From Nitrosomonas supralitoralis (GTDB taxonomy: Bacteria; Pseudomonadota; Gammaproteobacteria; Burkholderiales; Nitrosomonadaceae): a stretch of 64,000 nucleotides of DNA. Under the pieces are notes generated by a model. It worked only from the letters and a program-made list of their open reading frames with translations. It ran no database searches and was not told the DNA's origin. This document shows positions 40,236 through 47,438 of this stretch, piece by piece. Position numbers and translations under genes: made by a program. Numbering within the stretch: the first letter of the stretch is position 1; each line of letters opens with the position of its first letter. Location of the stretch: positions 1-64,000 of the forward strand of contig NZ_PXXU01000009.1 of NCBI RefSeq assembly GCF_003011925.2, given 5' to 3'.

Positions 40236-41486
40236 CTACCAACCATCCCGATAAATAGTCATAAGTTTGATCGCATTTTCGGCTAGCTGGTCAATACTAT
40301 GGCGGCCAAGTCTCAAATCTTTCAGATCCGCCTGACGATTTGGCAAAATTTCTCTCGATTTAAAATCAAATTGAATCAAGGGTGTGACATGATGAGAATT
40401 TAAATATATCTTTCCAGTTTTATCGGTATTAGAAAACGGGTCATGAATATCGACAATCACATAAATTAAATCTTGAAGCTGTTCTTTGGTGAGTGAAATC
40501 GTATAGGTATCAAAGAAATGATCAGGAACAGGGGAAGAATTAAAAGCAAATGTTTCCAATCCCAGAACAGCGCCAATCGCTTGCGCTAATCCACCACCTA
40601 AAGAATGCCCTGCCACGGTAATTTTTGCGCCAGGGTGCCGATTGACCACATCTTGAGCAAATCTAAATGCATCTTTAAATTGATCACTCACGGTACCCGT
40701 GCCTATGGCAGCATCTGCAATGGCATCGCGCGCAGTATCTTCCAATTCCTTAAACGAGCAAGGAAAGCTGCAGGTTTCCGTGCCACGAAATACCAGTGCT
40801 AACTCACTGGTATCACGGTTCATGAACACGCCTGCATCCATTCCCGAGCTTTTTCCATTGGATTCAATCAATTCCCAGGAGCCTACCGCAACATTATCAA
40901 AATCATAGATCGCATCAGCGAGTTGCGCATAAGGAATAGACCGTACCAGTAAGTCAACCGCACGCCGTTCATTTGGAAACAACATGCCATAGGGTTTCCA
41001 AGTGACATTGGGCACATACTCGGGATTGTTATACAGCGCGACTGAATTCAGCTCAAATACTGAAACTGCATCTACGGTCGCATCATCGCCATCTGTCACC
41101 CAGTTTAAACTGACAGCATATCGCTCAGTTCCATAAAGCTTGGGAACATTAACCTTAGGTAAGGTCAGCACACCGTTTAGAAGGGAGAAAGTTGGGCTAT
41201 GCGACTCGGAATCATCGTCAAACTCAGTGCTTAACAATATAAATCGGTTCGGATTATCCGCACCCTGCCACTGCAACAACGCTTTATATAATTGATCGCC
41301 AGATGAATCGGTCACGATGATTTTTTGTAAACATACTAACCCGTTGGATTCAATAAACGTAACCGGGGCTGTCAAATTGACGCATTCATCCGGTAATGCG
41401 TTGACTGCGGACACTGCAAGGATCAGTCCAGCAGCGCTGATCAGTCTGACTAAATTGAGATACCACTTTTTCATTAATTGACTCAT
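40236..41486 (-). CDS. Secreted class 3 lipase
   Basis: The 416-residue exported lipase or esterase has a signal peptide (about 10-31, ending VNAL), an N-terminal beta-rich part (to about 150) and a class 3 lipase domain. The catalytic Ser lies in VAGHSLGGGLAQA, the Asp probably in IVDIHDPFSN and the His in NSHHVTPL. ALVFRGTETCSFPC marks the beginning of the fold. It is read on the same strand as the ApbE gene, 64 bp downstream, so it may be the tail of that cluster. Substrate unknown. Confidence 0.85.
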   Translation of the reverse strand: MSQLMKKWYLNLVRLISAAGLILAVSAVNALPDECVNLTAPVTFIESNGLVCLQKIIVTDSSGDQLYKALLQWQGADNPNRFILLSTEFDDDSESHSPTFSLLNGVLTLPKVNVPKLYGTERYAVSLNWVTDGDDATVDAVSVFELNSVALYNNPEYVPNVTWKPYGMLFPNERRAVDLLVRSIPYAQLADAIYDFDNVAVGSWELIESNGKSSGMDAGVFMNRDTSELALVFRGTETCSFPCSFKELEDTARDAIADAAIGTGTVSDQFKDAFRFAQDVVNRHPGAKITVAGHSLGGGLAQAIGAVLGLETFAFNSSPVPDHFFDTYTISLTKEQLQDLIYVIVDIHDPFSNTDKTGKIYLNSHHVTPLIQFDFKSREILPNRQADLKDLRLGRHSIDQLAENAIKLMTIYRDGW

Positions 41487-41550: not shown

Positions 41551-42471
41551 TTATATTTCAGCCCTCTCTAACAGAGACCCTCCGGATTCCCCGCTCACAT
41601 TAACCCACAAGTGCGGCAAACCCAGTGTATTTAACCACTCAGCTCCAGCTTCCCCTTTCAACATACCAATGGTTGATGCACTGCCAGCAACGACACAGAA
41701 TTCACCCAGCACGCTGACCGCCGCCATATAATGTACCGGCCAACCGGTTTTAGGATTGAGCACATGGCCGTAACGAATACCGTTCAGTGTGATACAACGC
41801 TCATAATCCCCACTACTCGCCAATGCTCCTGTATGCAATAACAGTGTTTGCAATACCCCATCCGGATTTCGAGGATGACGGATGGCAACACGCCAAGGGC
41901 TGCCGTCCTGATGCGGACCAATTACTCTAATATCGCCCCCCAGATTAATCAGTCCATGGTGTATGCCAGCATCCCAGCATAATGAAGCAGCGCGATCGAC
42001 GGCATATTCCTTGACGACACCGCCAAAATCAATTTCCATTTCCGCAGCAGTGAACTGCAGAACTGGACGCTGCCAGCTAATTCTATGCCAACCGATTTTA
42101 TTCAAAAGAGCTCTAATTGCTTCCGGAGCAGGTATATTTCCTGACTTGAAGTTCCAGGCGCGACGCAGAATTCCGGAAGTAATATCAAACAAACCATCGC
42201 TTTGCTGATAACAAGTGTCCGCATAATCAAGTAATCCGGCAGTTTCATCATCCACACGGATATGCCCACCTTGCGCTGCAATGCGGTTTATTTCGGACAG
42301 AAAACTGTCTGCCCGATAACGAGAGTACTTTGCTTCAAGGCGATGCACATCATTCATAGCCAATTTGGCTGTACGCGCGGCCTTCATTTTGTGACTGGCA
42401 TAAAGCTGAATCGCGCAAGGCGAGCCCATTGCGCTGAAAGCAAAATGATAGTACTTTAACTGCGCCATCAC
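41551..42471 (-). CDS. apbE: FAD:protein FMN transferase (ApbE)
   Basis: ApbE attaches FMN from FAD to a Thr or Ser of a target protein. The 306 residues show SAMGSPCAIQLYA at the start, DGLFDITSGILRRAW, EIDFGGVVKEYAVDRAAS, LINLGGDIRVIG, VAIRHPRNP and HVLNPKTGWPV, which form the FAD and Mg sites. Unlike typical ApbE it has no visible signal peptide or lipobox, so cytoplasmic modification before export, or a non-standard export route, must be considered. It lies 43 bp after the DUF3570 gene, whose product carries a matching acceptor motif (T113). Confidence 0.93.
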   Translation of the reverse strand: MMAQLKYYHFAFSAMGSPCAIQLYASHKMKAARTAKLAMNDVHRLEAKYSRYRADSFLSEINRIAAQGGHIRVDDETAGLLDYADTCYQQSDGLFDITSGILRRAWNFKSGNIPAPEAIRALLNKIGWHRISWQRPVLQFTAAEMEIDFGGVVKEYAVDRAASLCWDAGIHHGLINLGGDIRVIGPHQDGSPWRVAIRHPRNPDGVLQTLLLHTGALASSGDYERCITLNGIRYGHVLNPKTGWPVHYMAAVSVLGEFCVVAGSASTIGMLKGEAGAEWLNTLGLPHLWVNVSGESGGSLLERAEI

Positions 42472-42514: not shown

Positions 42515-45229
42515 TTAGAACTCATAACTCCAGGTTGCCGACAACATTCCCTGCCGATCAAGCTGATATCCATTAAAGTCGCTCCTGATCGGTTGCAGCC
42601 ATTCTAATCCTAGCTGGTTCCCGGCAAAACGTCCGCCAAGAATCCGAACGTTCACACCAAATCCCATATCAAAGAATTGCCCGCCATAATTGGACGGAAA
42701 ATCCATCGGGCCGATACGCGCGTTAAATTTATTAAAATCCCGATGAATCGCATCCTGCCAAGTGTAAGCACCACGTATCGTGGCAGTCAGCCAATGCTTC
42801 AAATCATAACCACCCCAGGTTGTAGCCTGAAACTGGTCACCCAAGCGATAACCTGATTTATTCTGCTCTTCCAAACGCTTGATACCGCTGAATTGCGTAC
42901 CCCATGACCAGCGGTTGTATTCACCCGCATAAGTCAGGCTTGGGGTAAAATCCCAGGTACCGCTGCCCAGTTGCATGCCAAAATGGATCAAGCCACCATC
43001 AATCTTAGCGATGCGGCGCAGCTCGATATCCACTTTTCCTGTGGGCGCGCTGAATCCGAGATTCGCGTGCACACGATGACCGGGAATGTCCAGCAATTTT
43101 ATCATCGATGAGAAATAGGTATCGCCCACTGCACCGGTTTCATGCCCGGCTGCGCCTGTGTGTTCATGCACACCCGGCCTAGGAGGCGGAGCTCCGTCCA
43201 GCCTGCGCAAATTCATATCCATGTCCATGAAGGTCGGCATCAACATGACATTGAGCCAATGGGTCGGTGCATACATAAGGTCCACCATATGCATACGCAT
43301 GTTCATGAATGTCGGTACAAACCGGCAAAGCCCGATATCGCTGCAACCCTGATCAACGATAGTTTGATCATTTACCGTCTGGGTGCCATGCATCATATTT
43401 CCACCGGTCCAATTGTACATAAACCGATAACCTGCCATGAAATCTCCAGCCTTGTCGAGCATGTGACCAAACATGATACCTGCGGGAGGAATTTTGTGAT
43501 GCTGATGTGAAGTAGCATGAGAATGTGATTCAGAAGACCCACCAGACGTACCCATCGGTGGTAATGTCGCGGGTTCAATATCGAACTTTATCGCCGCATT
43601 CGCCACATAGTAGTCAAAATCTGCAAAACTGTTGCTTCCACCGCCGCCGATCTGCATTGAGCTGGCACGGGTATAGTATTCAAAACCGGCCTCCAGCGCG
43701 ACACCTTTGCCAAGCGTCTTACTCAATATTACCCCGCCGCTTAATGCGCCAAAGCCTGCCAAGCGGTGATCACTGGAAAAATGATCGGGTAATTTTCCAG
43801 AGTCGTATGATGTCATTTTAGGTGCGGCATTCACTGAAAAATCCACCGCATTGCCATTTTGATCAACCAGATCAAACTGCGTCTCACCAAAATACTGTTT
43901 AGTTAGATTATTCTGATCAACCCAGACTTTTCTTCCCAAACTATCAATTTCCTGTTTACTAAAAGCTTGCTGAGAAAACAAATAGGGTCGATAAAAACTG
44001 GCAGAATCTTGCGAGTAATAACGAATCCGGGGTGTCAACGTCCATCCGCCACCAATCGGTTGCACCCAACTGGCATCGAAAGTATGCGTATTCACCCCCC
44101 AATCGTCAACCGACAGTCGATACCCTAGATGCATTGCCGCATTGAATGGGCTGATATATTGAATGTATTTGGCATTTAAAGCGATTTGATTGCGAATATT
44201 GGGACGTTGTTCGATAAAGGCACGCACATCTCCACTAATTAAACTATTGTTTAATTGAGCCGGATCAATAAAAATAATCGATGTCGCCTTATAAGGATTT
44301 TCCAGGAATCCAGAGCTATGCGTGTAACCCACATTAGCATCAATCAACGCATTTTTTGTCAACACCTGGGTTAGCCCCACGTTCGCCACCCAGTCTTTCC
44401 GGTCTCCTCGCAGAATCTCAGAACCATCACGTCTCACTATTTGCTGCGCGTAAGCTTGTTTAGTGATATATGGCGATGAATCATGATCCAGAATTGCGCC
44501 GATTTCGCTGCTGGTGTAGCCACCACCAAATTTAACACTGGTGAGTTTCTGATTAAAATCCAGACGACCACCTATATTACCAAAACTTGATTGATAATCT
44601 CTTTCACGGGAGAATCCCCCTCCCACATTCATAGCCGCTTCATTCCATTCATAACTTAAGCCAAAATTAGCTTGGCGACGTGTTTCCGGAGAAGCTGATG
44701 ACATGACCAGGACCGATCGGGTATCGATACCGCCCACTAATTGTTTGGTGATGGGATCTCGTCCGATAGGATTTAAATCATGGTCTAAAAGAACCTGACT
44801 ATTGGCTAACGGAGAGGCCCCGACGACTACCCCATTAACTGTATAGGGGCGATTACCGCCATCGGTAGCCAATGGCGTCGTAGTGACTGGAGTTGCTCCC
44901 GACCAGGTATCTTGGGTATAACCAAACGTGAATTTGAAGCGATCAGTGAACGAGAAAACCCCACTGCCGTGCAAAACATCTGCTGAAATAGGTTTTAAAT
45001 TATTGGGAGCACCAAACAGATTGCGTTCACCTTCCTGGTAACGGCTATATTGAAAATTAACCCGGTCTTGACCGGCCGCATGTCCCGGTGATAATAATAA
45101 ACCGGGCAATACCATTGCCGCGGATGTAAGCGCCTGGAGTGTATTCCTTGGCTTTACTGATGAGGTTATTTCCGGGAGAGGGATTGGCTGACAGCCACGT
45201 TGACGCCGAGGCTTACTATTTCGCTGCAA
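42515..45229 (-). CDS. DUF3570 outer-membrane protein fused to a second His/Met-rich barrel domain
   Basis: The 904-residue exported protein has a long signal region (about 28-52, ending HAA). Residues about 55-560 are DUF3570 (NFQYSRYQEGERNLFGA and TFGYTQDTW). D107-T-W-S-G-A-T113 matches the D-x-x-[ST]-[GS]-A-T motif where ApbE puts FMN on the Thr. About 566-577 is a His-rich linker (HSHATSHQHHK). The rest (about 580-904) resembles a second outer-membrane transporter-like barrel, rich in His and Met (MRMHMVDLMY, FMDMDMNL, HEHTGAAGHETG), suggesting copper binding, and ends WSYEF like an outer-membrane barrel. DUF3570 proteins are usually about 400 residues; here the two parts are one protein. 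It follows the DUF4266 lipoprotein by 39 bp. Confidence 0.88.
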   Translation of the reverse strand: MQRNSKPRRQRGCQPIPLPEITSSVKPRNTLQALTSAAMVLPGLLLSPGHAAGQDRVNFQYSRYQEGERNLFGAPNNLKPISADVLHGSGVFSFTDRFKFTFGYTQDTWSGATPVTTTPLATDGGNRPYTVNGVVVGASPLANSQVLLDHDLNPIGRDPITKQLVGGIDTRSVLVMSSASPETRRQANFGLSYEWNEAAMNVGGGFSRERDYQSSFGNIGGRLDFNQKLTSVKFGGGYTSSEIGAILDHDSSPYITKQAYAQQIVRRDGSEILRGDRKDWVANVGLTQVLTKNALIDANVGYTHSSGFLENPYKATSIIFIDPAQLNNSLISGDVRAFIEQRPNIRNQIALNAKYIQYISPFNAAMHLGYRLSVDDWGVNTHTFDASWVQPIGGGWTLTPRIRYYSQDSASFYRPYLFSQQAFSKQEIDSLGRKVWVDQNNLTKQYFGETQFDLVDQNGNAVDFSVNAAPKMTSYDSGKLPDHFSSDHRLAGFGALSGGVILSKTLGKGVALEAGFEYYTRASSMQIGGGGSNSFADFDYYVANAAIKFDIEPATLPPMGTSGGSSESHSHATSHQHHKIPPAGIMFGHMLDKAGDFMAGYRFMYNWTGGNMMHGTQTVNDQTIVDQGCSDIGLCRFVPTFMNMRMHMVDLMYAPTHWLNVMLMPTFMDMDMNLRRLDGAPPPRPGVHEHTGAAGHETGAVGDTYFSSMIKLLDIPGHRVHANLGFSAPTGKVDIELRRIAKIDGGLIHFGMQLGSGTWDFTPSLTYAGEYNRWSWGTQFSGIKRLEEQNKSGYRLGDQFQATTWGGYDLKHWLTATIRGAYTWQDAIHRDFNKFNARIGPMDFPSNYGGQFFDMGFGVNVRILGGRFAGNQLGLEWLQPIRSDFNGYQLDRQGMLSATWSYEF

Positions 45230-45268: not shown

Positions 45269-45520
45269 TTAATAACAGCCACAACCTCCACCGCCGGAAG
45301 AGGATTTATGACTCGGTGCTGCTTCCCGGCTACTATAGTTATGGGATTGCATTTCGCTTTGCAAAGGATAAGGATCAATTTCCATTTGCGTTTTTGCCAG
45401 ATTACCGCGCTCCCATGGAGCTACGCTCACACAAGCTGTCAAAAAAATACATGCTATAAAGATATAACAGCGTGCAATTATAGCTCTAATATTTAGTTTA
45501 ATCATGGGAGATATAGACAT
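45269..45520 (-). CDS. DUF4266 lipoprotein
   Basis: I start at the ATG at 45520 (83 residues) since AGGA lies just upstream; the TTG at 45535 would add five residues. The lipobox is FLTAC. The mature protein begins CVSVAPWERGNLAKTQM, the DUF4266 hallmark (PWERG.LA), continues HNYSSREAA and ends with the family's glycine-cysteine tail, GGGGCGCY. The two C-terminal cysteines could bind metal or exchange disulfides. It is always found by DUF3570 and often by a thioredoxin, as here (22 bp after the TlpA gene). Function unknown. Confidence 0.85.
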   Translation of the reverse strand: MSISPMIKLNIRAIIARCYIFIACIFLTACVSVAPWERGNLAKTQMEIDPYPLQSEMQSHNYSSREAAPSHKSSSGGGGCGCY

Positions 45521-45542
45521 TGCAAATCCTGACAACTGGAAC

Positions 45543-46040
45543 TCATTCCTTCAGCAGTTGCGTAATCAAGGCACGTAACTTTTCTGATTCACCCGTACGA
45601 AACCCTTGATGAATATGACGAACATTACCATTGCGATCAATCAAAAAGGAAGTTGGCATTGCCATTAACTCAAATTCTTTGGCACATTGTTTACTGAGAT
45701 CGGCCACAATCGAAAAATCAACCGGATTCTTGGCAAGGAATGCTTGCGCATCGACAACTTTCTCATCCAGATTGATACCGACCACATGTAAACCTTCATC
45801 CTTCAAATCCTGATCCAGTTGATTCAGAAAAGGAAAAGACTTTATGCAGGGCGGACACCATGAGGCCCAGAAATCCATGTATACCACCTTACCTTTCAAT
45901 TCCTGCAGATTATAGGTTGGATCCCCGTCCAATGTAGTAAATTGACATGAAGCTGATGCTTGTTCCAGCTGTTCTGCTAATAATGGCCCTGTAAACAGAA
46001 GCAGTACAAAAGCAAAACAAGATAATTTTATATTTTTCAT
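45543..46040 (-). CDS. TlpA-like periplasmic thioredoxin
   Basis: The start at 46040 (165 residues) is preceded by GAGGTGG at suitable spacing. A signal peptide (about 5-22, ending LLA) leads to a TlpA/ResA-type thioredoxin fold with the redox motif FWASWCPPCIKSFPF and the cis-proline AMPTSFLIDR. A further cysteine pair lies near the N-terminus (SASCQF) and in the helix (KQCAKEF). It would reduce or isomerise disulfides in the periplasm, with the DUF4266/DUF3570 proteins the likely clients by context. Confidence 0.92.
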   Translation of the reverse strand: MKNIKLSCFAFVLLLFTGPLLAEQLEQASASCQFTTLDGDPTYNLQELKGKVVYMDFWASWCPPCIKSFPFLNQLDQDLKDEGLHVVGINLDEKVVDAQAFLAKNPVDFSIVADLSKQCAKEFELMAMPTSFLIDRNGNVRHIHQGFRTGESEKLRALITQLLKE

Positions 46041-46094
46041 AGTTAAAACCACCTCAATGATCTCAAAGCGCTCTTATGTAAACTAATATGACCG

Positions 46095-46556
46095 TTATTG
46101 AAATTGATGAACAAGAACTTCCGACGTTCCTGTATGTACATTATCGAATGTCATACAATGATAAGACACAATAAATTTACGTAGGCCCGGACCAGTTTTG
46201 TTAACAAGTAAAAGATAAGGGCCTTGCCCACCAAACACACTGATATTATCGCTAAACCTACCATCACCGGAAATTGCGTCAGTAGTATTAATTGCATGCT
46301 TGCCTTGAATTATCTGCAAGTTCACCAATAAGTTTTCTTGTGGCAACGAAGTATCTTGAACACTGGCAACCAAATGATCTGGGGGTCCATTTCCATCATC
46401 AAAACATGTAACTTGCCCATATCCAGTAAAACTCGCAACATTACCATTAGGATCCATGATAGCCCCGGCATCATGCGCACTACTTATACATGCATACCCA
46501 AGCGTAGCTAAAGTAAAAACAATACTTAATGCTTTTTGAAAAAATAGCTGTGACAT
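46095..46556 (-). CDS. Secreted protein with predicted N-terminal histidine
   Basis: A 153-residue exported protein. The signal peptide ends ACISSA, and cleavage there leaves His-Asp-Ala-Gly as the mature N-terminus. The mature part is a predicted beta-sandwich with two cysteines (VTCFDDG, SYHCMTF) that can pair. An N-terminal His next to a secreted beta-sandwich is the pattern of copper-binding proteins such as CopC and YcnI, so copper binding is suspected. No family name is recognised. It is 54 bp before the TlpA gene on the same strand. Confidence 0.6.
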   Translation of the reverse strand: MSQLFFQKALSIVFTLATLGYACISSAHDAGAIMDPNGNVASFTGYGQVTCFDDGNGPPDHLVASVQDTSLPQENLLVNLQIIQGKHAINTTDAISGDGRFSDNISVFGGQGPYLLLVNKTGPGLRKFIVSYHCMTFDNVHTGTSEVLVHQFQ

Positions 46557-46691: not shown

Positions 46692-47438
46692 TTATTGCGG
46701 CCAAACCTGATTGCCATTAAAAATAATCGGCATATCACGGTTAATTTGCGCTGCTGATGGCTTTACTTCGACCACCTGACCGGTTCCACAAGATGCTGGC
46801 AAAGGATTAGTTTCGCTACGAAGAATGGTCAGTGATGCAGGACCATCATCAGTGGTGCTGACACGGTCGTAAATGGTCCCAAGATTGTTATGCGTCCAGA
46901 AATTAACTGTATTTTCATTAAAACCGGATGCAGGTGTGATTTCACAAATATCCGCGATTGAGATATAAAATTTCACACTCGCTGCACAGGATGTAGGTTC
47001 AATGAGCGCCGCACTGGTTCTAAAGGGGATATAGCCAGACATATCATGTGGCAGGGAGTCACCACCGCCAGCCCAAAAACCAGAAACGTTTCCATTGGCA
47101 TCCGGTTTCTCAGCCTGGAAGGTAAAAACTGCTTTACTATAAATTTTCGTATTAAGATTTCCCCAGTTTTGTATAAACTCAGTCAGGTCACCGGTATGTG
47201 GCTGACCATCAACCAAAATGGATGAATCCACTCCATCTGGAAACACTACGCTGGTGCCAATTACATTATTCTCACCACAACCATGCCCAATTACCACGTT
47301 ATTGGTTACTCTAATATTTTCGGAAACTTCGGGTACTTCCAGGCGCGTATGAGCTAACGCGTTATGTCCCAATGTTGAAATTACAGCAGCAATTACAGAA
47401 CACGATATGAATTTTATTTTATTATGACTTATCATCAA
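46692..47438 (-). CDS. YcnI/DUF1775-like secreted protein
   Basis: A 248-residue exported protein. The signal peptide ends HNALA and the mature protein should start HTRLEVPEV, giving an N-terminal His as in YcnI, which binds copper through a single-histidine brace. The IGHGCGENN and SVVFPDGVDS segments match the DUF1775 core. Four cysteines in the mature part could form disulfides. It starts the minus-strand run that leads to TlpA, DUF4266, DUF3570 and ApbE, 135 bp from the next gene. DUF1775 membership is based on these segments and is moderate. Confidence 0.7.
   Translation of the reverse strand: MMISHNKIKFISCSVIAAVISTLGHNALAHTRLEVPEVSENIRVTNNVVIGHGCGENNVIGTSVVFPDGVDSSILVDGQPHTGDLTEFIQNWGNLNTKIYSKAVFTFQAEKPDANGNVSGFWAGGGDSLPHDMSGYIPFRTSAALIEPTSCAASVKFYISIADICEITPASGFNENTVNFWTHNNLGTIYDRVSTTDDGPASLTILRSETNPLPASCGTGQVVEVKPSAAQINRDMPIIFNGNQVWPQ

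Follow-up and report, generated by a model that had tools for sequence, protein, structure and literature searches.

The gene clusters that most resemble the locus reported here are those of Meheust et al. 2021 (PMC8238504), in which ApbE, DUF3570, a thioredoxin-like protein and DUF4266 occur together, with or without DsbD. In that work ApbE flavinylated the DUF3570 protein of Chlorobium luteolum, which has two [ST]GA[ST] sites; the ultraviolet-visible flavin disappeared only on replacement of both serines, and both motifs were conserved in an alignment of 228 DUF3570 proteins. We analysed a 64,000-nucleotide (nt) stretch of Nitrosomonas supralitoralis (contig NZ_PXXU01000009.1, positions 1 to 64,000; hereafter the window) that encodes a long-form DUF3570 protein, with apbE as the next gene. 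The protein is predicted to be a flavinylated outer-membrane protein, and its ApbE belongs to a distinct, signal-less branch that would act in the cytoplasm. An earlier note on this DNA had read a flavinylation motif in the DUF3570 protein; that observation is confirmed, and its interpretation is right in kind, yet already published.

The genes form a six-gene operon on the minus strand, which reads, 5' to 3', 248-amino-acid (aa) secreted protein, 153-aa secreted protein, TlpA/ResA-like thioredoxin, DUF4266 lipoprotein, DUF3570 and apbE:

46692..47438, minus strand: 248-aa secreted protein of predicted YcnI fold (AlphaFold and Foldseek; without a Pfam family), predicted mature N-terminus His30 (cleavage between ALA and HTRL)
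46095..46556, minus strand: 153-aa secreted protein (open reading frame, ORF; without a Pfam family above cut-off), predicted mature N-terminus His (cleavage between SSA and HDAG)
45543..46052, minus strand: TlpA/ResA-like thioredoxin with WASWCPPC (Pfam, best PF08534/PF00578), present in 113/121 loci
45269..45535, minus strand: DUF4266 small lipoprotein (PF14086, 1.3e-18; lipobox by eye) with a C-terminal CGC (ends CGCY)
42515..45229, minus strand: DUF3570 long-form protein, 904 aa, made up of signal peptide, barrel 1, His/Met-rich linker and barrel 2 (ORF, PF12094, AlphaFold)
45077..45229, minus strand: DUF3570 signal peptide with the conserved, weakly hydrophobic core LTSAAMVLPGL (alignment and hydropathy), cleaved probably after A51
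44888..44911, minus strand: flavinylation motif site 1, D107-T-W-S-G-A-T113-P114, acceptor T113 codon at 44891-44893, matching the D-x-x-[ST]-G-A-[ST] pattern of PMC12052999
44810..44824, minus strand: possible second site, V136-G-A-S139-P140 (genus alignment)
43580..45064, minus strand: barrel 1, residues 56-550, about 16 strands by our count, DUF3570 domain (AlphaFold secondary structure)
43442..43579, minus strand: His/Met-rich disordered linker, residues 551-596, 6 His and 3 Met of 46, predicted periplasmic (AlphaFold model)
42518..43441, minus strand: barrel 2, residues 597-904, 12 strands, COG4313-like channel with a methionine ladder (AlphaFold and fold match)
41551..42471, minus strand: apbE, signal-less KEYAVD/Gly branch (PF02424, 2.1e-72)

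Like the published clusters (PMC8238504), this operon unites a DUF3570 protein with GA[ST] sites, ApbE, a CXC-bearing DUF4266 protein and a thioredoxin-like protein. It differs in joining a second, 12-stranded barrel to DUF3570, in a thioredoxin that best matches PF08534/PF00578 and in two further secreted proteins, each with a predicted N-terminal His; no DsbD was found among the nine window proteins scanned with Pfam.

The earlier note had placed D-T-W-S-G-A-T at residues 107-113 of the DUF3570 protein, with apbE 43 bp away, and both statements hold. The codons of D107-T113 occupy 44911-44891 and those of the adjoining P114 occupy 44890-44888, so that 44888-44911 is exact, and the ORF at 42471..41551 is an ApbE family member by its PF02424 match. 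Membership in DUF3570 is equally clear (PF12094, 9.4e-109, residues 32-542, model positions 2-427 of 427 in the Pfam scan); the frame begins with TTG, preceded by GAGGT. The pattern D-x-x-[ST]-G-A-[ST] occurs once in the 904 aa, at a conserved column. Because 163 of 20,000 shuffles of the protein also contain it, the match alone is only moderately surprising, and the case rests on conservation.

That conservation is complete within the genus. Our alignment of Nitrosomonas copies has 57 rows, 56 of them readable; the remaining row, L068, is a split ORF whose aligned piece does not hold the site and whose other piece reads DTWSGATP. Site 1, D-[TIV]-W-[SA]-G-A-T-P, is kept in 56/56 readable copies (DTWSGATP in 48, DTWAGATP in 4, DIWSGATP in 2, DVWSGATP and DIWAGATP in 1 each). 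Site 2, x-G-A-S-P, lies 26 residues further on and reads [VATS]-G-A-S-P in all 56 (44 V, 6 A, 4 S, 2 T). In the window protein it is V-G-A-S-P, retaining GAS and having lost the first S/T and the Asp; some relatives have VSGASP, TTITGASP or DGVSGATP there. A shorter DUF3570 clade reads mostly D-S-[IV]-S-S-A-S at site 1, without the Gly. Members of this clade (L164-L178, mostly DSISSASID) have more hydrophobic signal peptides and usually retain DUF4266, with no KE-type ApbE (defined below); they are probably DUF3570 proteins without flavin. Attachment of FMN (flavin mononucleotide) to the window DUF3570 protein is, judging from these sequence patterns, very probable. Flavinylation of this DUF3570 protein by the neighbouring ApbE, as the earlier note had proposed, is well supported but no new claim, having been shown for the C. 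luteolum protein (PMC8238504).

Conservation of the motif together with apbE, a check proposed in the earlier note, was found in the genus. By whole-genome search DUF3570 is present in 62/73 genus genomes, where frames are mostly about 900 aa, and in 67/121 relatives in all; the 73 exclude eight genus genomes (G487-G494) that were untested for DUF3570. In the class it is present in 95/369 genomes, mostly as shorter frames of about 370-560 aa. ApbE was found in 61 of the 62 DUF3570-containing genus genomes versus 1 of the 11 that lack DUF3570 (Fisher p 2e-10). In the one exception with DUF3570 and no ApbE (G032), DUF3570 lies near a contig start, and the sole genus genome with ApbE and no DUF3570 (G038) has the exported KG/Asp type. 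The window's own genome holds one ApbE only (E <= 0.001).

ApbEs linked to DUF3570 form a recognisable branch, in that they carry KE[YF]AVD and a Gly (KE/Gly, or KE-type) where exported ApbEs carry KG and an Asp (KG/Asp). The stretches fetched from the DUF3570 searches number 120 and represent part of the matches; ApbE pieces of <=230 aa (8/98 and 7/68 matches) and repeats with identical last 200 residues were excluded from the signal and branch counts. In stretches with a motif-bearing DUF3570 gene, or its split gene, 112 ApbEs were KE/Gly and 2 were KE/gap (n=114), whereas 3/3 beside motif-less DUF3570 were KG/Asp. The remaining 48 fetched ApbEs comprised 39 KG/Asp, 8 KE/Gly and 1 of neither type. 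All 8 of these KE/Gly ApbEs come from genomes with motif-bearing DUF3570, and five of them adjoin a second DUF3570 match (G331, G432, G437, G464, G472), so that "unlinked" would be too strong a word for those five. At the Asp column of canonical ApbEs the window protein has Gly, where 19/20 controls have Asp; its Ser and His columns are retained. We therefore file it as a DUF3570-linked branch of PF02424 and not as a canonical ApbE. The conserved Asp of the exported enzymes probably corresponds to Asp285 of the Vibrio ApbE triad, that protein standing outside our alignment (PMC12052999). Another variant, L340, is a KG/Asp ApbE-like protein that has neither signal peptide nor the His.

At the level of single gene copies, 51 of the 56 motif-bearing copies in the genus have a KE-type ApbE in the locus and 5 have none. 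Beyond Nitrosomonas, a KE-type ApbE accompanies 35 of the 52 motif-bearing copies, a fragment 4 and none 13, and the 13 motif-less copies have no KE-type ApbE (exported type in 3, none in 10). Eleven of the 13 motif-bearing copies without a locus ApbE sit in 9 genomes with a KE-type ApbE elsewhere; the other two, L164 and L173, we take by their N-termini to be members of the motif-less clade that happen to have the Gly. A narrower distance rule for the association of motif and ApbE (31/19 vs 3/10, p 0.026) missed genus ApbEs and was replaced by this count by ApbE type. Co-occurrence and branch together fit one dedicated enzyme-target pair.

These counts bear on the idea that the signal-less ApbE serves a cytoplasmic protein, its place beside DUF3570 being incidental and the motif a structural strand-end motif. 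Cytosolic ApbEs with cytosolic targets do exist, as for Klebsiella fumarate reductase (PMC12052999), and the related D-S-[IV]-S-S-A-S retained by the motif-less clade may mean that the motif is partly structural. We nevertheless find this account very improbable in view of the genus-wide co-occurrence, the 0/13 motif-less loci with a KE-type ApbE, a search of the window's own genome that gave no FMN_bind match, and the published flavinylation of DUF3570 (PMC8238504).

The earlier note had also remarked that ApbE shows no signal peptide, and this is so: a TAA stop lies two codons before the GTG start, and, unlike exported ApbE lipoproteins, the protein has neither signal peptide, lipobox nor hydrophobic N-terminus. 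The absence is a trait of the whole branch and points to a cytoplasmic reaction before export, which would explain the conflict that the note saw with a periplasmic reaction. By a heuristic rule, a signal-like N-terminus occurs in 1/112 ApbEs that share a stretch with motif-bearing DUF3570, the exception (L243) having it in a long upstream extension, versus 16/20 control ApbEs, the remaining 4 of which have a hydrophobic stretch by eye. Of five ApbEs whose neighbouring DUF3570 frame has no readable motif, two are signal-like, L165 is hydrophobic though missed by the rule, and L068 and L256 (split genes) are signal-less. An ApbE exported without an N-terminal signal peptide could instead flavinylate DUF3570 in the periplasm before the barrel assembly machinery (BAM) inserts it, much as periplasmic ApbE modification is described for exported targets such as NqrC (PMC12052999). 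We regard this as improbable, given how steadily linked ApbEs lack the signal, against a hydrophobic N-terminus or lipobox in almost every other ApbE fetched (L340 excepted), the median space of 80 nt between DUF3570 stop and ApbE domain (109 pairs), and the lack of a second ApbE in the genome. The Klebsiella enzyme likewise has no signal peptide and acts in the cytoplasm, as is predicted for ours, but its target is a soluble cytoplasmic enzyme where ours is a signal-bearing, predicted outer-membrane barrel (PMC12052999).

With an ApbE that has no export signal and a target that has a signal peptide, the simplest order is flavinylation, then export, and we think it likely from these sequence features that the reaction is cytoplasmic. 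Motif-bearing DUF3570 proteins have less hydrophobic signals (median of the best 12-residue Kyte-Doolittle value 1.78 for short forms, n=46, and 1.94 for long forms, n=60) than the motif-less clade (2.43, n=15; p 5e-7 and 6e-6). Same-locus signals, scored by a slightly different rule, gave 2.38 for TlpA (n=116), 2.11 for the 153-aa protein (n=68) and 2.15 for the YcnI-like protein (n=82). A weakly hydrophobic signal suits slow, post-translational export, and FMN would probably fit through SecYEG. Conserved positions of the core are L34, T35, A37, A38, L41, P42 and G43; the DUF3570 core, LTSAALVLPGL in long forms and by eye another pattern, AL-x-x-AT-x-SLL, in many short ones, looks better conserved than signal peptides usually are. 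The C. luteolum DUF3570 protein was flavinylated when co-expressed in Escherichia coli with its cognate ApbE, the cloning being described as "similar" to a strategy in which genes had been truncated to remove the signal peptide; it was mostly in the pellet, was purified with guanidine and was flavinylated (PMC8238504), so that ApbE seems not to need a membrane-inserted substrate.

An AlphaFold model built on 57 sequences (mean predicted local distance difference test score (pLDDT) 76.6, predicted template modelling score 0.71) and fold matches support the earlier note's view of DUF3570 as an outer-membrane barrel; the model has two such barrels, of about 16 strands (56-550) and 12 strands (597-904), joined by a disordered linker (551-596). 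Residues ~51-551 match BamA (VIA-align Z 21.4), CymA (18.4) and OmpG (17.4), a likeness (Z 17-21) that may reflect only a shared barrel arrangement. The note would have taken burial of T113 in a barrel strand, with no flavin detected, as a refutation. T113 does lie in predicted strand 3 (98-119), but near its outer end: by strand counting the strand runs outward and T113 is at the outer mouth of barrel 1, and the alternation of F98, F100, F102 and Y104 toward lipid would turn T113 to the lumen. A long loop (120-171), also on the outer side, holds site 2.

In barrel 2, residues 584-904 of the predicted model superimpose on the COG4313 channel Pput2725 (4RL8; PMC4493636), likewise a 12-stranded barrel, with Z 23.0, root-mean-square deviation 2.7, 251 aligned residues and 15% identity (VIA-align). 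Barrel 2 differs from Pput2725 in being the C-terminal half of a chain with two barrels, and in its conserved methionine ladder and His-rich lead. The plan also resembles that of PcoB/CopB (PMC12509749), in which a disordered His/Met-rich tail precedes a 12-stranded barrel, except that here the barrel is fused to a predicted flavinylated one. The ladder comprises M642/644/646/648/652/662/664/672/752. Among 30 ORFs that are homologous to barrel 2 but not part of a long form, 24-28 retain these methionines, and 3 each retain M668 and M670. By parity in the model the ladder would face the lumen. The barrel 2 sequence matched no Pfam family at E up to 1, and a PDB sequence search with the alignment returned nothing meaningful. 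Its homologues L290 and L264 match PF13557, which we take to be the Pfam counterpart of COG4313, at 7.7e-8 and 4.2e-4, the latter below the family cut-off.

DUF4266 is present in 118/121 loci and ApbE in 93, some loci being cut by contig ends, and the CXC of DUF4266 is conserved. Among 80 relatives kept out of 271 with named genomes, a set chosen partly by motif and hence no test of it, DUF4266 occurs in 80/80, the TlpA-like gene in 79, the 153-aa protein in 78, the YcnI-like protein in 73 and ApbE in 65, the misses including contig ends. By name, Nitrosomonas and Methylococcales (Methylobacter, Methylovulum, Methyloprofundus, Methylocucumis) make up most of these 80, and a few are named no further than Proteobacteria, beta- or gammaproteobacteria; the same six-gene operon occurs in methanotrophs. 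The 153-aa proteins, which match no known family, are encoded in some methanotrophs by as many as three adjacent genes. The 248-aa protein matched no Pfam family at E up to 1; its AlphaFold model (pLDDT 90.2) has a predicted YcnI fold, with YcnI structures 7me6, 8um6 and 7mek as best Foldseek matches and YcnI chains making up five of the six matches at E < 0.001 (E 1.2e-4, probability 1.00, target template modelling (TM) score 0.74). With YcnI, a protein that binds copper through an N-terminal His, it shares a His as the first residue of the predicted mature chain (conservation >=90%) and a target TM-score of 0.68-0.77 to 7ME6, 8UM6 and 7MEK; it differs in being clearly longer, at 6-7% identity and a query TM-score of 0.38-0.43.

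Taken together, these data lead us to lean, with modest confidence, toward an ApbE-flavinylated, double-barrel DUF3570 protein with its own cytoplasmic branch of ApbE, tagged before general secretory (Sec) export and perhaps engaged in metal handling at the cell surface. While the preprotein is still unfolded, cytoplasmic ApbE would place FMN on T113 and possibly on S139; Sec would export the flavin-carrying chain and BAM insert it, so that FMN would come to lie at the outer opening of barrel 1. Periplasmic thiols would supply the electrons, through TlpA and then the CXC lipoprotein DUF4266, a route that we offer tentatively by analogy with a published thioredoxin-CXC proposal (PMC8238504). 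At the surface the flavin would then reduce a metal ion, Cu(II) to Cu(I) being the likeliest case. The metal would be moved and taken over by barrel 2, with its methionine lining and His-rich tail, and by the YcnI-like protein.

Several points weigh against this reading. Signal-peptide calls came from a home-made heuristic and not from SignalP. A Gly at the column where exported ApbEs have a conserved Asp leaves the activity of the ApbE branch unproven by sequence, and the text of PMC8238504 is ambiguous on the signal peptide of C. luteolum ApbE. The hydropathy difference is confounded with clade and ancestry, and the 153-aa and YcnI-like signals are nearer to DUF3570 than TlpA's is. The outer and lumenal placement of T113 depends on strand counting and parity, without coordinates. 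As for the metal, the iron transporter VIT1 is linked with 25 DUF3570-type clusters (PMC8238504), and a barrel-2 fusion in Methylosinus adjoins feoB and a PepSY_TM gene. Neighbours of standalone barrel-2 genes are mostly housekeeping genes, with only 2 CusB-type and 2 heavy-metal-domain matches among 80 proteins from 17 loci. PF04744 (AmoB/PmoB) has no match in G087, a genome with two long forms, and it is present in 6/7 tested Nitrosomonas genomes that lack DUF3570 as well as in 5/5 tested that have it.

The VIT1 and Methylosinus associations favour iron, with the two-barrel protein reducing Fe(III) at the surface and passing Fe(II). We consider iron unlikely, since nine methionines are conserved in barrel 2 and most of its homologues, and methionines are soft Cu(I) ligands; the YcnI-fold neighbour and the PcoB-like plan of a His/Met tail before a 12-stranded barrel (PMC12509749) argue in the same direction. 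From the same three features, read mostly from predicted models, a copper role for the operon is quite possible. Copper efflux or resistance, with barrel 2 as a PcoB-like exit channel, would draw on PcoB itself, whose disordered periplasmic His/Met tail is needed for efflux (PMC12509749). It appears quite unlikely, in that efflux should need no reducing flavin at the outer face and no multicopper oxidase family was found among the nine window proteins; the absence of a CopB match was not counted as exclusion.

PF04744 is found in 3/3 long-form class genomes besides our own (G006, G293, G368) versus 10/369 genomes overall (Fisher p 1.5e-5). That the long form is exclusive to copper-monooxygenase genomes was rejected as a rule; it is enriched there, not required. 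Our own assembly (G000) gave no PF04744 match, perhaps through an assembly gap, while 11/12 other tested genus genomes have one to three. Two copper-monooxygenase genomes in which DUF3570 has no match (G257, G370) encode barrel 2 by itself, in frames of 366 and 380 aa that rank with the top-scoring standalone matches. The Methylosinus fusion (L291:2312-7008, plasmid of Methylosinus sp. C49) is a 738-aa outer-membrane protein with an N-terminal PF13505 domain joined to the barrel-2 homologue, and the two long-form genes of G087 lie divergently in one locus (L079; frames 959 and 1002 aa). Around the operon in the window, a lipase-3-like gene (40236-41486) lies 3' of apbE, as it does in part of the genus, and an alginate-export family porin (PF13372, 48823-50499) lies upstream on the opposite strand.

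Within the literature examined, what appears to be new is an ApbE branch of cytoplasmic type, the fusion of two barrels together with its operon, and the order of events that follows from them. A literature search for DUF3570 returned PMC8238504 alone. No publication on a cytosolic ApbE paired with DUF3570 was found in the main texts of the open-access library searched; the main text of PMC8238504 is silent on "barrel", "copper", "cytosolic ApbE" and "intracellular", and the consulted sections of PMC11334425 do not mention DUF3570. No publication on two-barrel proteins was found either, which says little, nor any that could be tied to the operon: MEALZ_0810/0811 are induced by copper limitation (PMC11784148), and a link from them to this operon could not be made.

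If cytoplasmic attachment and passage through Sec are true, extracytosolic flavinylation would not depend on flavin adenine dinucleotide (FAD) beyond the inner membrane, which changes how such systems are to be sought (this branch of enzymes would escape any screen in which ApbE must carry a signal peptide), and the conflict between a signal-less ApbE and an outer-membrane target would be explained. The same operon in methanotrophs suggests surface redox and transport of copper, or of iron. In its fullest form, the proposal is that a dedicated cytoplasmic ApbE branch, its active site rebuilt from Asp to Gly and from KG to KE, tags an outer-membrane barrel preprotein with FMN ahead of Sec, the polypeptide itself carrying the flavin out of the cell with no FAD exporter involved, and that in nitrifiers and methanotrophs the tagged barrel, joined to a methionine-lined channel, makes up a surface flavin reductase and copper channel; we hold this whole to be doubtful. 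Should the two-barrel protein indeed reduce and move copper, ammonia and methane oxidisers, whose central enzymes depend on this metal, would have a concrete route for it across the outer membrane that can be put to the test.

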